Source of the DNA: Emcibacter sp.
GTDB taxonomy: Bacteria; Pseudomonadota; Alphaproteobacteria; Sphingomonadales; Emcibacteraceae
Assembly (NCBI GenBank): GCA_026982375.1
Contig: JALSHF010000215.1
Coordinates: 1 to 40,176 of the forward strand
Length of the DNA stretch: 40,176 bases
Reading direction: 5' to 3'
Shown: piece after piece, positions 34,158 to 39,235 of the stretch
Position numbering within the stretch: position 1 is the first letter of the stretch
Layout: each line of letters starts with the position of its first letter
Position numbers and translations under genes: made by a program
Notes under the pieces: generated by a model
The model's input: the letters and a program-made list of their open reading frames with translations, nothing else
The model's database searches: none
What the model was told of the DNA's origin: nothing

Positions 34158-34631
34158 TTATTTTTTTCTGAAGGTATCCAGCGTTACCACATTGTTGTCA
34201 TTGTCATCAGCTGGTTTAATATCGGAGGCCGCCTCAACAATAGCGGGCAGGTCATCACTATGGTCATTATTCGGTTCATTGGCGTTGAAATGCAGACCGA
34301 AATCAACGCTCGGATCAAAAAAACCTTCCAGGGCGGCAAAAGGAATATACAGATGTTCCAGCTTGCCACTAAAGCTCAAAGAAAGTTCAAAATGCTCATC
34401 ATCCACCACAAGATCCGCGAATTGATTTTGAACAACAATGGTCATTTCTTCGGGATAACGTTCTTTTAAGTAGGCGGGGATGCTCACCTCTGGGTGAGTT
34501 GTGCTGAAAGTGAGGTAAAAATGATGCTCGCCGGGCAAGCCATCCTTGCTTGCATTGTGTAATACGTCCCTGACGACGGAAAGAAGCGCCGTTTGAACCA
34601 TGGCATCATACTGAATTATGCTATCTGTCAT
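34158..34631 (-). CDS. sspB: ClpXP adaptor SspB (alphaproteobacterial type)
   Basis: A 157-residue adaptor that delivers ssrA-tagged, incomplete proteins to the ClpXP protease. It begins IQYDAMVQTALLSVVRDVL, then GEHHFYLTFSTTHPEVSIP, both typical of the SspB fold. It ends after an acidic, Asn/Asp-rich flexible linker in VVTLDTFRKK, the short ClpX-docking tail. The alphaproteobacterial SspB recognises tags ending FAVAA-like sequences, and the tag gene ssrA lies about 3 kb away at 37579-37837. Start ATG at 34631 with GGAAAA upstream. Next to fumarase on the same strand. Confidence 0.92.
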   Translation of the reverse strand: MTDSIIQYDAMVQTALLSVVRDVLHNASKDGLPGEHHFYLTFSTTHPEVSIPAYLKERYPEEMTIVVQNQFADLVVDDEHFELSLSFSGKLEHLYIPFAALEGFFDPSVDFGLHFNANEPNNDHSDDLPAIVEAASDIKPADDNDNNVVTLDTFRKK

Positions 34632-34739: not shown

Positions 34740-34775
34740 CTGGTTATAGAGCTGGTTTTAGAACTGGTTCTAGAA
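34740..34775. repeat. Three 12-bp tandem units over the TonB receptor stop codon
   Basis: CTGGTTATAGAG, CTGGTTTTAGAA and CTGGTTCTAGAA follow each other at 34740-34751, 34752-34763 and 34764-34775. The receptor stop TAG (34770-34772, minus strand) lies in the unit nearest the gene. Confidence 0.85.
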
Positions 34776-36929
34776 CTCTGACTGAATCCGGAAATAGAAA
34801 GACCGGCCGGCTTCATTGACCCGTAATGCCGTGGCATCATTCAGACTTTCCCGGTTCAAGTGGTTGGCGTAAAGTTTATCAAGCAGATTGGATATGCCAA
34901 AGCGGAATTTGGTTTGTTTTATAAATTCCACAGAAGCAAATATGTCAATAATGCCATAACCATCCGTTTCACCGGCATCCCGTCCGCTGCCTGTTATGAA
35001 GTTATCGTCCACACGATTTTGTTTTAAAGCACCGCGCAGGCGACTTCCTACGGACCATTTATCCCGGCTGTAGGTCAGGGTGAGGTCATAGCTGAAAGGC
35101 GGGATCTGATAAAGCGGAATATTCAGGTCCTGATTTTGGCCGTTGGTGTATGAAATATTACCAAAGACTTCCAATTTGTCGGTAACCTGAATACTGCCCT
35201 CAACTTCAAAACCCCAGATGCGGGCTTCGATATTGCGATATATCAATGCGTTATTGGTCACAAGAATATTCTCTTGACCATGGGCGCGGTCCCGGAAAAT
35301 ATAATCATTGATATCATCATAATAGGCGGAAAACAGGATGTTCCATTCAGGCTTGCGAATGCCCAGACCTATATCAAACTGGGTATGCTTTTCCGGCGCA
35401 AGACGGGGGTTGCCGATCCAGCTCATATTCATGACTATGCCGGACGGCATTATGCTGCTTCCCCTCAGGCTCGCCATATAGCGTTCGACCGTATTGGCGC
35501 TGCGGTTACTGCGGCTCAGGCCAATATAAAGCGCGGCGTCCGTGGTTAAATCATATTCAAGCCGCAGCAGGCCACCCAGATTATTTTCCGTCTGGTCTGT
35601 GGCACCTGTGCCATAATATAAATTATAGAGCATGTCAGGGCTCATGGGCATCATTCCCGGCATGACAAGGTCATTTTTTATATCAGTATCGTCGGCGGTT
35701 GATTTTACATTGTCATAGCGAATCCCGGCCTTGACCTGCATTTTGTCCGTAACCGGCATAATTGCTTCTGCGAACAGACCGATATTGCGGATTGTGGCAT
35801 CCGGAATCAGGACGGACTGGACAGGCACCATATTGGTCCGGTCCATATTATGGCCGTTCCTCCGGCCGTTATGGTTCAGGTTCTTGATATCCATCCCAAG
35901 GCTGACTTTAGTCTCTTTGATCTGAAGGTCGGCAAGGATTTTTCCGCCGGTGGTATAGGCATCCAGCTCGGCCTGCCGAAACATCATCATCCGGTCACGC
36001 AACGAGAAATTATCCATCCTGTGGTAAGCATGGGACCGGTAGATATCTATTTTCAGGCTTTTCATCGGGCCATCGCTATCAAAATCGTGACGCAGTTTGC
36101 CGCGAATGACGGTGCCGGAACCATCGGGAGAATCCATGCCGGCACCGGGAAACAGCATATCGCGGGTCTCTTCATGGCTTATGCCCAGATTGATCAGGGT
36201 GAATTCATCACTATAGCCAACCTCGGCGCTGCCGCCATATGATGTGAAGGCGCTGTTGACCACATCACTCTGGCCGTCCTGATAGCTTTGCGCATCCTTG
36301 AAATGCCCGTTAAGCCGAAAATAGACTTTGTCAGCGCGGGCGGCAAAATGTCCCGCCATGCTCCATATATTGCCATTGGTTTCATAGGCCCCGTTAAGCC
36401 GGCCCTTGATGTTGCGGCCATCCTGAAAGGTCGGGGCGTGATGTTCGACAATGATCGTACCCCCGCTGCCGCCGGGGCCATATTGCACAGATTGATAGCC
36501 ACGGTGAACAATCACCACATCGGCGGTGTCGATATCCATCCATGCCGCCGCTGTATCCATGCGGTTTGGTCCGGCACCTTCGAGGAACGCCCCGCCATTG
36601 ATGATGTTAAGCTGGCTTCTGCTTTGGCCGCGAATGACCGGTTCCAGTCCGTGGCCGCTCATGCGGCCGCTGGTGACGCCGGGGATATTCCGAAGGTAAT
36701 CTCCGGCATCGGCCGATGGCTGGCCATCGTGATCTTTGGGGACGGATGTGGACAGGGCCGGTTTTTGCAACAGGGTTCCTGTGACGATAATCTCATCTAT
36801 TTTACGATCAGATTCATTATTTTTGGGTGTGATGATAACAGTTTGGGCCGCCGCATTCTGACTAAGGCAGATAAGCGAAGCGCCAGCAGCCGACCATAGG
36901 CTGCGGTTAAGCAATTTCCATGTGGACAT
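34770..36929 (-). CDS. TonB-dependent outer membrane receptor, copper-receptor-like (OprC/NosA type)
   Basis: A 719-residue TonB-dependent receptor. A signal peptide (1-29) is followed by a TonB-box-like DEIIVTGTLL. The plug domain has DAGDYLRNIPGVTSGRMSGHGLEPVIRGQSRSQLNIINGG and VQYGPGGSGGTIIVEHH. A 22-strand-type barrel ends in the aromatic FYFRIQSEF. Plug segments such as GPNRMDTAAAWMDIDTADVVIVHRG resemble TonB-dependent copper receptors (TIGR01778, OprC/NosA). Methionine-rich stretches (VMPGMMPMSPDMLY, MPSGIVMNMSW) and GHNMDRTNMVP fit copper handling. The ATG has AGGGAA upstream. The small HCxxC protein gene upstream (37013-37456) is likely its operon partner. Specificity for copper is inferred. 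Confidence 0.88.
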   Translation of the reverse strand: MSTWKLLNRSLWSAAGASLICLSQNAAAQTVIITPKNNESDRKIDEIIVTGTLLQKPALSTSVPKDHDGQPSADAGDYLRNIPGVTSGRMSGHGLEPVIRGQSRSQLNIINGGAFLEGAGPNRMDTAAAWMDIDTADVVIVHRGYQSVQYGPGGSGGTIIVEHHAPTFQDGRNIKGRLNGAYETNGNIWSMAGHFAARADKVYFRLNGHFKDAQSYQDGQSDVVNSAFTSYGGSAEVGYSDEFTLINLGISHEETRDMLFPGAGMDSPDGSGTVIRGKLRHDFDSDGPMKSLKIDIYRSHAYHRMDNFSLRDRMMMFRQAELDAYTTGGKILADLQIKETKVSLGMDIKNLNHNGRRNGHNMDRTNMVPVQSVLIPDATIRNIGLFAEAIMPVTDKMQVKAGIRYDNVKSTADDTDIKNDLVMPGMMPMSPDMLYNLYYGTGATDQTENNLGGLLRLEYDLTTDAALYIGLSRSNRSANTVERYMASLRGSSIMPSGIVMNMSWIGNPRLAPEKHTQFDIGLGIRKPEWNILFSAYYDDINDYIFRDRAHGQENILVTNNALIYRNIEARIWGFEVEGSIQVTDKLEVFGNISYTNGQNQDLNIPLYQIPPFSYDLTLTYSRDKWSVGSRLRGALKQNRVDDNFITGSGRDAGETDGYGIIDIFASVEFIKQTKFRFGISNLLDKLYANHLNRESLNDATALRVNEAGRSFYFRIQSEF

Positions 36930-37012
36930 TTCTATTCCCTGGTATTTCTTTGAATTATGGGTAAAATATGCAAACCCAGTTGGGCTGCATTATAAATATA
37001 TATTTGACGGGA

Positions 37013-37456
37013 TTAGACTTGCGGCGGCGCGCGGGGCGGGCAAGTTATATTGACCGGCGTTTCAGGAAGATACAAAATATCATAGATGCCGGTAGGCTTG
37101 TTGGAAACCGGACCGACATCAACATAACTGATTTCCACAGAAGTGTTGTTGAGGACTATTTTATGAAAAGGCAGGCAATATATACAATGTTCTGATTTAC
37201 CTTCATCAGGATTTACCGGATTGCCATTTTCGTCCAGAGTAATGCGTTTAAGCCCCTGGGGCGTGCAAATGATATAGCTCTGAATACCGGATAAAAAGTC
37301 ATTTTCCAGGGCATCCTGCAGTCCCCCGTTGGTGGCGGACAAGGCGGCGGCGGAAAAAATATTCAACAGCAGGACAGACAGCATAAGCCGGCCCATTTTT
37401 CGGCCAAGACGCTGAGCTATTAACGTCAGAAAGGCTGTTGATTTTTTGCCGGCCAT
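37013..37456 (-). CDS. Small exported Cys protein, DUF2946-like, upstream of copper-type receptor
   Basis: A 147-residue protein. A basic start (MAGKKSTAFLTLIAQRLGRKMG) and a hydrophobic segment (about 23-42) resemble a signal or anchor. The mature part has IICTPQGLKRI, HCIYCLPF (a H-C-x-x-C motif) and a Pro-rich end (CPPRAPPQV). A single early Cys plus a central HC..C is the layout of DUF2946-type proteins, which are often found next to copper-responsive TonB receptors. That match is from pattern only. It lies 83 bases upstream of the receptor on the same strand, so the two are probably one operon. A metal-binding or chaperone role in the periplasm is inferred. The ATG has GGAAA nine bases ahead. 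Confidence 0.7.
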   Translation of the reverse strand: MAGKKSTAFLTLIAQRLGRKMGRLMLSVLLLNIFSAAALSATNGGLQDALENDFLSGIQSYIICTPQGLKRITLDENGNPVNPDEGKSEHCIYCLPFHKIVLNNTSVEISYVDVGPVSNKPTGIYDILYLPETPVNITCPPRAPPQV

Positions 37457-37565
37457 AGATCAGTTTCCAATTTTGCCCCCATAAAAATATTATATGGCAA
37501 CCTATTCTATATCAGGAGATATATTCTTGATCTAGGGCAAAAAAAGATATTTTGAGGAAATGAGT

Positions 37566-37606
37566 AAAAAATTAAAGTGAAGGGCTTCTGTTGCTAGGTG
37601 CCCTTC
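37566..37606 (-). terminator. Hairpin and T-tract at the end of ssrA
   Basis: On the minus strand GAAGGGC and GCCCTTC (37579-37606) form a 7-bp stem with a 14-nt loop, followed by ACTTTAATTTTTT. The loop also contains ACCTA, which can pair with TAGGT just after the tag stop (37623-37627), as a pseudoknot. The element may therefore belong to the tmRNA itself as well as end transcription. Confidence 0.7.
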
Positions 37607-37837
37607 GGACCCCGCGTAACTAACCTATTAGGCCGCTACAGCAAATGCTTCGTTATTATCGTTTGCATCTACAAATTTTGACCCGTCGCAGCGGTATCAT
37701 ACTGAGCAAAAGTTATATCTTTATTACGCACGTCGATCCTATTTCGCCCCCATAAATGGTGGAGGCGCCGGGTACCGCCCCCGGGTCCGCAACGTCTATT
37801 CCATACATCAGTTTATTGCCGTAGTTGGTTACCCAAC
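37579..37837 (-). ncRNA. ssrA: Circularly permuted (two-piece) transfer-messenger RNA
   Basis: tmRNA rescues stalled ribosomes and tags the unfinished protein. Read on the minus strand, the gene starts at about 37837 with a GTTGG-GTAA-CCAAC hairpin. The acceptor piece follows and ends in CGCCTCCACCA (CCA at 37759-37757). A spacer of only five bases separates it from the coding piece, which begins GGGGGCG (37751). The two ends pair over seven positions, including the G3-U70 pair that alanyl-tRNA synthetase recognises. GGATCGACG follows, the usual D-loop-like motif. The tag frame at 37666-37628 encodes ANDNNEAFAVAA then TAA and TAG. This permuted order (3' half before 5' half) is known from alphaproteobacteria. 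The exact 5' and 3' ends are inferred from the promoter and hairpin. Confidence 0.93.
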
Positions 37838-37843
37838 ATGTTA

Positions 37844-37872
37844 TATATAGGGCATGGAGATTAAAATTTGAA
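37844..37872 (-). promoter_or_regulatory. Promoter of ssrA
   Basis: On the minus strand TTCAAA (37872-37867) and TATATA (37849-37844) are separated by 17 bases. The expected start, six to seven bases on, falls at about 37837, exactly at the first hairpin of the tmRNA. Confidence 0.65.
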
Positions 37873-37934
37873 TAGCTAAGAAAAAATAATTATATAGAGT
37901 GGGAAATAAGTCATTATTAAAGCAGCAGGATTAT

Positions 37935-38729
37935 ATGAAGCAATATCTGGATTTAATGCGCCATGTGCGCGACCATGGCGCCATTAAGGAAGATCGAACG
38001 GGCACCGGAACGCTGAGTGTTTTTGGCCATCAGATGCGCTTTGACCTGTCAGAGGGTTTTCCCATGGTGACCACAAAAAAGCTTCACCTGAAGTCAATCA
38101 TTCATGAGTTGCTGTGGTTTTTGACAGGCGATACCAATATTAAATATCTGCAGGATAACGGCGTTAAAATCTGGGATGACTGGGCGGATGAGCATGGTGA
38201 CCTTGGCCCGGTTTACGGCCATCAATGGCGGTCATGGCCCACGCCAAACGGGGAAACGGTGGATCAGATCAGCAATCTTGTGGGTATGATTAAAAATAAT
38301 CCCGACAGCCGCCGGTTGATCGTCAGCGCATGGAATGTGGCGGATGTGGACCATATGGCCCTGCCGCCGTGCCATTGCCTGTTTCAATTTTATGTGGCCG
38401 ACGGAAAATTAAGCTGCCAGCTTTATCAGCGCAGCGCGGATATTTTTCTGGGCGTGCCGTTTAATATCGCGTCTTATGCTTTATTGACTCAGATGCTGGC
38501 GCAGGTTTGCGGCCTTGAGGCCGGCGACTTCATTCATACATTCGGTGATGCCCATCTTTACCGCAATCATCTGGCACAGGTGGATGAACAGCTTGGCCGC
38601 GCGCCGAAACCCCTGCCGGTCATGAAAATCAATCCTGACGTGACAGATATTTTTGGCTTTACCTTTGATGACTTTGAACTGGTGGGCTACGCGCCTCACC
38701 CGCATATTGCCGCAAAGGTGGCGGTATGA
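37935..38729 (+). CDS. thyA: Thymidylate synthase
   Basis: A 264-residue ThyA, the same length as the E. coli enzyme, which methylates dUMP to dTMP with methylenetetrahydrofolate. The nucleophilic Cys146 lies in [12 protein letters not shown]. Other family segments are [28 protein letters not shown], and the C-terminal [10 protein letters not shown] that closes over the active site. An in-frame start at 37899 is open, but the ATG at 37935 has AGGA and gives the exact family N-terminus [11 protein letters not shown]. The stop overlaps the folA start. It reads divergently from ssrA. Confidence 0.97.
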
Positions 38730-39235
38730 TGGTGAAACTCAGCCTGATTGTGGCCGTAGCGGAAAATGGTGTCATCGGCAGGGACAATGATCTGCCGTGG
38801 AAAATATCGTCTGACTTGAAATATTTCAAGGAAAAGACCATGGGCAAGCCGATTATCATGGGCCGCAAGACGTTCCAGTCCATTGGCCGGCCCTTGCCCG
38901 GACGGGTTAATATTGTCATTACGCGCGATAAAACTTTCGCGCCGGAAGGGGTGATCACCGCCTTTAGCCTCGAGATGGCTCTGGATGTGGCAAAAAATCT
39001 CGCCCTTGCCAAGGGTATGGACGAGGTGATGGTCATTGGCGGGGCCGAGATATATGCCCTCTGCCTGCCCGATGCCGACCGTCTGTATCTGACCCGCGTT
39101 CACGGCGACGTGGGCGGCGACACCCATTTCCCCGCCCTTGATAGCGACGACTGGCTCGAAGCCTCCTCTGAAAAATTCAAACGCGGTGAAAAAGACAGCC
39201 ACGATTATAGTTTGATCGTGCTGGATCGGGTTTAG
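38726..39235 (+). CDS. folA: Dihydrofolate reductase
   Basis: A 169-residue type I dihydrofolate reductase, which regenerates tetrahydrofolate from the dihydrofolate made by ThyA. Visible signatures are [43 protein letters not shown] and [10 protein letters not shown]. The start overlaps the thyA stop (ATGATG at 38726-38731, TGA at 38727), so translation is coupled. The second ATG (38729) may be used; AAGGTGG lies just ahead. The two adjacent genes form the classic thyA-folA operon. Confidence 0.97.

Follow-up and report, generated by a model that had tools for sequence, protein, structure and literature searches.

An intact permuted ssrA gene with a 5-nt intervening segment in an Emcibacter genome

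The ssrA locus

The window analysed here, i.e., the whole stretch of 40,176 nt, harbors on its minus strand a permuted tmRNA gene (ssrA) in which, by sequence and by Rfam alignment, the acceptor half lies upstream of the coding half. The gene and its context comprise the following features:

37757–37876, minus strand: acceptor piece of ssrA, making up the 5′ portion of the permuted gene and closing with CCA, the 5′ limit given here being that of the RF01849 match
37768–37784, minus strand: T arm (CCGGG stem, GGCGGTA loop, CCCGG stem), from the sequence, the Rfam structure line and the hairpin fold
37761–37767, minus strand: 3′ half of the acceptor stem, CGCCTCC, with 7/7 pairing to 37751–37745
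37760, minus strand: A73, from the sequence
37757–37759, minus strand: encoded CCA end, from the sequence
37752–37756, minus strand: 5-nt intervening segment TTTAT, which the mature RNA is predicted to lack; its length varies in relatives, the flanks being conserved
Between 37752 and 37751, minus strand: predicted RNase P site, from the A(−2)U(−1) leader end
37745–37751, minus strand: 5′ half of the acceptor stem, GGGGGCG, the predicted 5′ end of the coding piece, from the sequence and the A(−2)U(−1) leader end
37576–37751, minus strand: coding piece of ssrA, from RF01849
37631–37666, minus strand: proteolysis tag ANDNNEAFAVAA, encoded by 12 codons of which the GCA resume codon is the first, from the sequence and ARAGORN
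37625–37630, minus strand: tandem stops TAA TAG, from the sequence
37579–37606, minus strand: 3′-terminal hairpin GAAGGGC...GCCCTTC, then a T run (37571–37566), a possible terminator from the fold
34158–34631, minus strand: sspB, encoding the adaptor for SsrA-tagged proteins (context, outside the RNA gene), Pfam PF04386, 140.8 bits

The alpha_tmRNA model (RF01849) matches over its full length (1–355) at 37876–37576 with 242.9 bits (E 1.7e-69), far above its gathering score of 50, and tmRNA_permuted (RF04321) matches the same locus with 150.5 bits (E 4.8e-30). ARAGORN concurs, calling a permuted tmRNA at 37537–37851. The presence of a permuted tmRNA on this strand, proposed in a sequence-only reading that named a covariance search as the check, is thus confirmed, and its interpretation as permuted ssrA is supported. 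That reading found the right locus, but its span of 37579–37837 falls slightly short of the Rfam match; its positions for CCA (37759–37757), TTTAT (37756–37752) and GGGGGCG (37751–37745) are exact. The source genome (2.63 Mb in 223 contigs, 97.5% complete) contains one RF01849 match, and the whole RNA folds better than its shuffles (z −2.29). The locus is an ordinary, intact alphaproteobacterial two-piece tmRNA gene, the spacer of which is near the lower limit of a wide range of lengths. With the two Rfam families it shares the full-length match, the acceptor–spacer–coding order, the T-loop, the acceptor stem, the resume region and the tag; the difference lies in the 5-nt spacer. An odd T-loop, which had been suspected, is rejected: GGCGGTA equals the RF01849 consensus (GGCgGUA) and is non-canonical only by the standard of ordinary tRNA. 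A promoter scan of 37500–38000 detected nothing resembling a sigma-70 site on the minus strand, and the 3′ hairpin was not called by a terminator scan. A core ribosome-rescue RNA of this kind would be missed by ORF-only annotation and found at once by standard RNA tools, which makes its recognition here of modest importance. Permuted forms have been catalogued, the tmRNA database of 2025 containing 11,946 of them with the intervening sequence marked (PMC11915505).

The tag frame reads GCA AAC GAT AAT AAC GAA GCA TTT GCT GTA GCG GCC TAA TAG, with a GCA resume codon, a hydrophobic A-A tail and stops (ANDNNEAFAVAA TAA TAG), just as first described. The tag called by ARAGORN, DNNEAFAVAA followed by two stops, begins at the third codon, two codons after the start chosen in the sequence-only reading. 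The earlier start is favored because the Rfam alignment has a conserved UGCAAACGA at the tag start and ARAGORN itself calls tags as ANDN... in short-spacer relatives. The NORP63 tmRNA (NVVM01000002.1, L076) has both the TTTAT spacer and an identical ARAGORN tag.

Acceptor stem and covariation

The acceptor stem had been drawn as 7 bp including G3-U70, and all seven pairs do form in the sequence and in the fold, next to A73-CCA. G3-U70 together with A73-CCA constitutes the identity of an alanine acceptor. In the hairpin fold, U(−1) can additionally pair with A73, adding one pair to the stem. Taken alone, the acceptor/T-arm hairpin is not clearly more stable than its shuffles (z −1.32), owing to its shortness and its G+C-richness.

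Comparative evidence for the stem comes from at least 116 short-spacer loci in named contigs, every one of those listed having 7/7 acceptor pairs. The search pattern fixes pairs 1–4, one side of pair 7, G3-U70 and A73, so that pairs 5 and 6 are the main informative ones. Among the matches listed, pair 5 is GC in 87, AT in 16, CG in 9 and TA in 4 loci, and pair 6 is CG in 78, TA in 37 and TG in one. Together, 231 of these 232 pairs are Watson-Crick, compared to an average of 133.4 and at most 155 over 1000 shuffles, a contrast that is inflated by the relatedness of the species. Unless the stem is under selection, the occurrence of all four types at pair 5 is nevertheless difficult to explain.

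Spacer length among relatives and across the class

The brevity of the spacer had been singled out as deserving comparison with relatives, and this comparison removes most of its interest, since spacers of 2–9 nt recur across the class. Among 60 genomes searched, the source genome included, 57 carry the RNA; spacer lengths were taken for 53 genomes from a first parser and added for four that it had missed, and for the 15 of 58 relative loci missed by one regular expression the first-parse values were used. Short spacers (5–9 nt) occur in 5 of the 57 genomes, all belonging to the source genus, the remaining 52 having spacers of 20–110 nt. The short set consists of the source genome (G000), G009 and G006 with TTTAT (5 nt each), G007 with TTTTTAT (7 nt) and G003 with TTAGCTTAG (9 nt); the other ten genomes of the genus with the gene have spacers of 23–35 nt. 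Two tmRNA genes in G006 were considered and rejected, as its two partial matches lie at contig ends and are identical over an overlap of 123 nt. Because spacers range from 5 to 110 nt among relatives with both flanks conserved, spacer length evidently changes readily, the flanks remaining fixed. The long spacers of L003, L041 and L050 have complementary ends and could apparently fold into internal hairpins, which sets them apart from the short, A+T-rich spacers.

A pattern scan for spacers of 0–9 nt, which requires conserved flanks, retrieved at least 116 stretches in named genome contigs. The lengths among the matches listed are 2 nt in 6, 3 nt in 11, 4 nt in 8, 5 nt in 13, 6 nt in 19, 7 nt in 17, 8 nt in 17 and 9 nt in 25; their titles include Devosia, Belnapia, Roseomonas, SAR116, Pelagibacterales, Rhodobacteraceae, Rickettsia and Odyssella. 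The same scan found permuted tmRNA-like genes on 54 viral contigs (IMG/VR, L175–L228), mostly with 8–9 nt (2 nt in one, 3 nt in one, 5 nt in 2, 7 nt in 5, 8 nt in 28 and 9 nt in 17). An even sample of the class (385 genomes) gave 78 matches with a spacer of 0–30 nt and 92 with one of 31–61 nt, the other 215 genomes matching neither pattern, either because the spacer is longer, because a flank deviates or because the gene is absent. Spacers of up to 9 nt account for 16 of the 170 matching rows, and spacers of up to 5 nt for 7 (own genome included), spread over seven different families. On these sequence comparisons the 5-nt spacer is short yet not exceptional, recurring in many relatives and going down to 2 nt; a rare new variant is rejected in view of the short spacers in named contigs, viral contigs and the class sample.

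The shortest spacers found, of 2 nt, occur in L107, L126, L143, L159, L164, L166 and L223 as well as in G120 and G341; none of 0–1 nt appeared among the 116 matches listed, the 54 viral contigs or the class sample, and two order-level searches (1 and 12 genomes) yielded 2–3 nt only. This hints, from an incomplete census, at 2 nt as a lower limit. ARAGORN was run on 24 short-spacer loci, 19 of which have spacers of 2–3 nt; among these 19 it called 16 tmRNAs, missing L164, L102 and L178. Its silence is only weakly informative because it also misses the Rfam-supported relatives L028 and L031. A literature search by title and abstract opening found no paper on very short permuted-tmRNA spacers.

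Proposed processing and function

A permuted precursor has to be cut, since its encoded CCA does not lie at an end. The gene, its fold, its tag, the partners in the genome and the conservation are shown by the present analysis; for transcription, the cutting enzyme and order of cuts, charging and tagging we infer the following route. A single precursor would be transcribed from the minus strand, in which the acceptor half would pair with the beginning of the coding half in the 7-bp acceptor stem, leaving A-CCA-UUUAU as a short closing loop. RNase P would cut before G1 of GGGGGCG, which would give the coding piece a free 5′ end. The UUUAU that remains attached to the acceptor piece would be trimmed back to the encoded CCA, which would then be charged with alanine. 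The two pieces are expected to stay paired and, in trans-translation with SmpB, to add the tag (A)ANDNNEAFAVAA, which is probably handed to ClpXP by the SspB encoded nearby. The joint reading of the locus as the genome's ssrA in its permuted alphaproteobacterial form, with this whole scheme of processing and trans-translation, is given a probability of roughly 0.95. The required partners are encoded in the genome: RNase P RNA is present (316.5 bits), and so is SmpB (PF01668, 194.5 bits, contig C80). A second, partial SmpB match on contig C217 overlaps the first by 285 nt with 98.9% identity at contig ends; two different smpB genes were rejected, this being probably one gene split between contigs.

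Two mature pieces, cut at TTTAT, are predicted. The two-piece tmRNA of Caulobacter likewise stems from a permuted gene, the precursor of which is processed into two paired pieces (PMC3985003), and it has been shown to work in trans-translation (Keiler et al. 2000, as cited in PMC3985003). The comparison with the window is one of Rfam family only, a Caulobacter control genome matching RF01849. In Orientia, northern blotting of the permuted tmRNA detected a precursor along with pieces of ~80 and ~240 nt (PMC7335160). Permuted tRNA genes of algae and archaea resemble the present gene in that an intervening sequence, 1–74 nt in length, joins the ends of the acceptor stem (PMC3978253). In contrast to the two-piece tmRNA, however, these tRNAs are religated into one piece (PMC3978253).

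A leader ending in A(−2)U(−1) is reported to be optimal for the bacterial RNase P of E. coli (PMC9433436). The window spacer ends in AU, and so do 60 of the 116 short spacers listed, compared to 21.1 expected from spacer composition. The AU leader end and the AU enrichment point to RNase P cutting before GGGGGCG, followed by trimming of TTTAT to the CCA, as the simplest and most likely route. RNase P is reported to be inhibited when two leader bases pair with RCCA, and shortening the leader to two bases lowers kcat/Km 5.2-fold (PMC9433436). The window spacer allows one such pair, U(−1)-A73, which is below the reported two-pair threshold (PMC9433436); it nonetheless counts against the RNase P route because leader–RCCA pairing slows the enzyme (PMC9433436).

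Alternatively, the short closed loop might be opened first by another nuclease that cuts within UUUAU in the manner of RNase E or RNase Z, in which case RNase P would act later or never. The A+T-richness of the short spacers (A 0.36, T 0.51 among the matches listed) speaks for such a cut, and a review regards as open both the requirement of RNase P and tRNase Z for linear ends and the way in which a 1-nt intervening sequence is removed (PMC3978253). We consider this order of events unlikely, since spacers of 2–3 nt offer hardly any room for a separate cut and the short spacers are enriched in AU next to the cleavage site, as is typical of RNase P leaders. A different processing order or enzyme is conceivable because the leader is tied to the CCA, so that RNase P would have to act with neither a free leader nor a free CCA. 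That spacers of 2–9 nt arise repeatedly and that their closed-loop precursors are handled by a different cut order or enzyme, with a floor of ~2 nt set by the cutting enzyme, is likewise a doubtful proposition. RNase P cleavage followed by 3′ trimming is thus preferred, and spacers of 2 to 110 nt constitute a natural length series with which this route could be tested on precursor ends joined by a tiny loop.

Genomic neighbourhood and origin

In the window, sspB follows ssrA on the same strand at a distance of 2975 bp. This order and orientation are seen in 43 of 57 ssrA genomes, the distance being less than 1 kb in 27 and 1–5 kb in 16; in the others sspB lies far off on the same contig (4) or on another contig (10). 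This conserved neighbourhood links the tag-encoding RNA with the adaptor for the tag; no paper on an ssrA–sspB linkage was found in a literature search by title and abstract opening. On the other side, a thyA and a DHFR gene (37899–39235, plus strand) are divergent from ssrA, and with short flanks ThyA similarity is detectable beside ssrA at 34 of 56 relative loci.

These neighbours bear on the possibility that the gene came into the chromosome with a phage or another mobile element, as the permuted tmRNAs with 2–9 nt spacers on the 54 viral contigs might suggest. With thyA adjoining ssrA here and at many relative loci, and with sspB downstream within 5 kb in most genomes, the neighbours are kept; the arrangement therefore appears to be a stable chromosomal one, and a phage origin is highly improbable. 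A decayed, non-functional ssrA copy, for which the sole point is a spacer shorter than that of most relatives, is just as implausible given the full-length covariance match, the intact tag and stops, the 7/7 acceptor pairs, the lack of a second RF01849 match in the genome and the sharing of the TTTAT spacer by the related genomes G009 and G006.

Trees were calculated from the tmRNA core (23 rows, none viral) and from thyA (22 rows); G006 (5 nt, gene split) and G015 were omitted from both and G010, G002 and G004 from the thyA tree. The window RNA groups with that of G009, inside the genus, in the tmRNA tree. The two 5-nt forms group together in both trees, with 100/100 support in thyA and, in the tmRNA tree, in a 90/89 group that also holds G010 (24 nt). 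G003 (9 nt) and G007 (7 nt) fall elsewhere with weaker support, and the number of spacer shortenings within the genus is not settled by these two trees.

The stretch between ssrA and sspB (34770–37456, minus strand) contains a gene for a TonB-dependent receptor and an ORF of 147 aa that has no Pfam match. G009 is a near relative, yet its sspB follows ssrA after a gap of only 173 bp; this insert thus comes and goes within the genus. In Pelagibacter, the tmRNA gene has thyX as its neighbour (PMC2704228).
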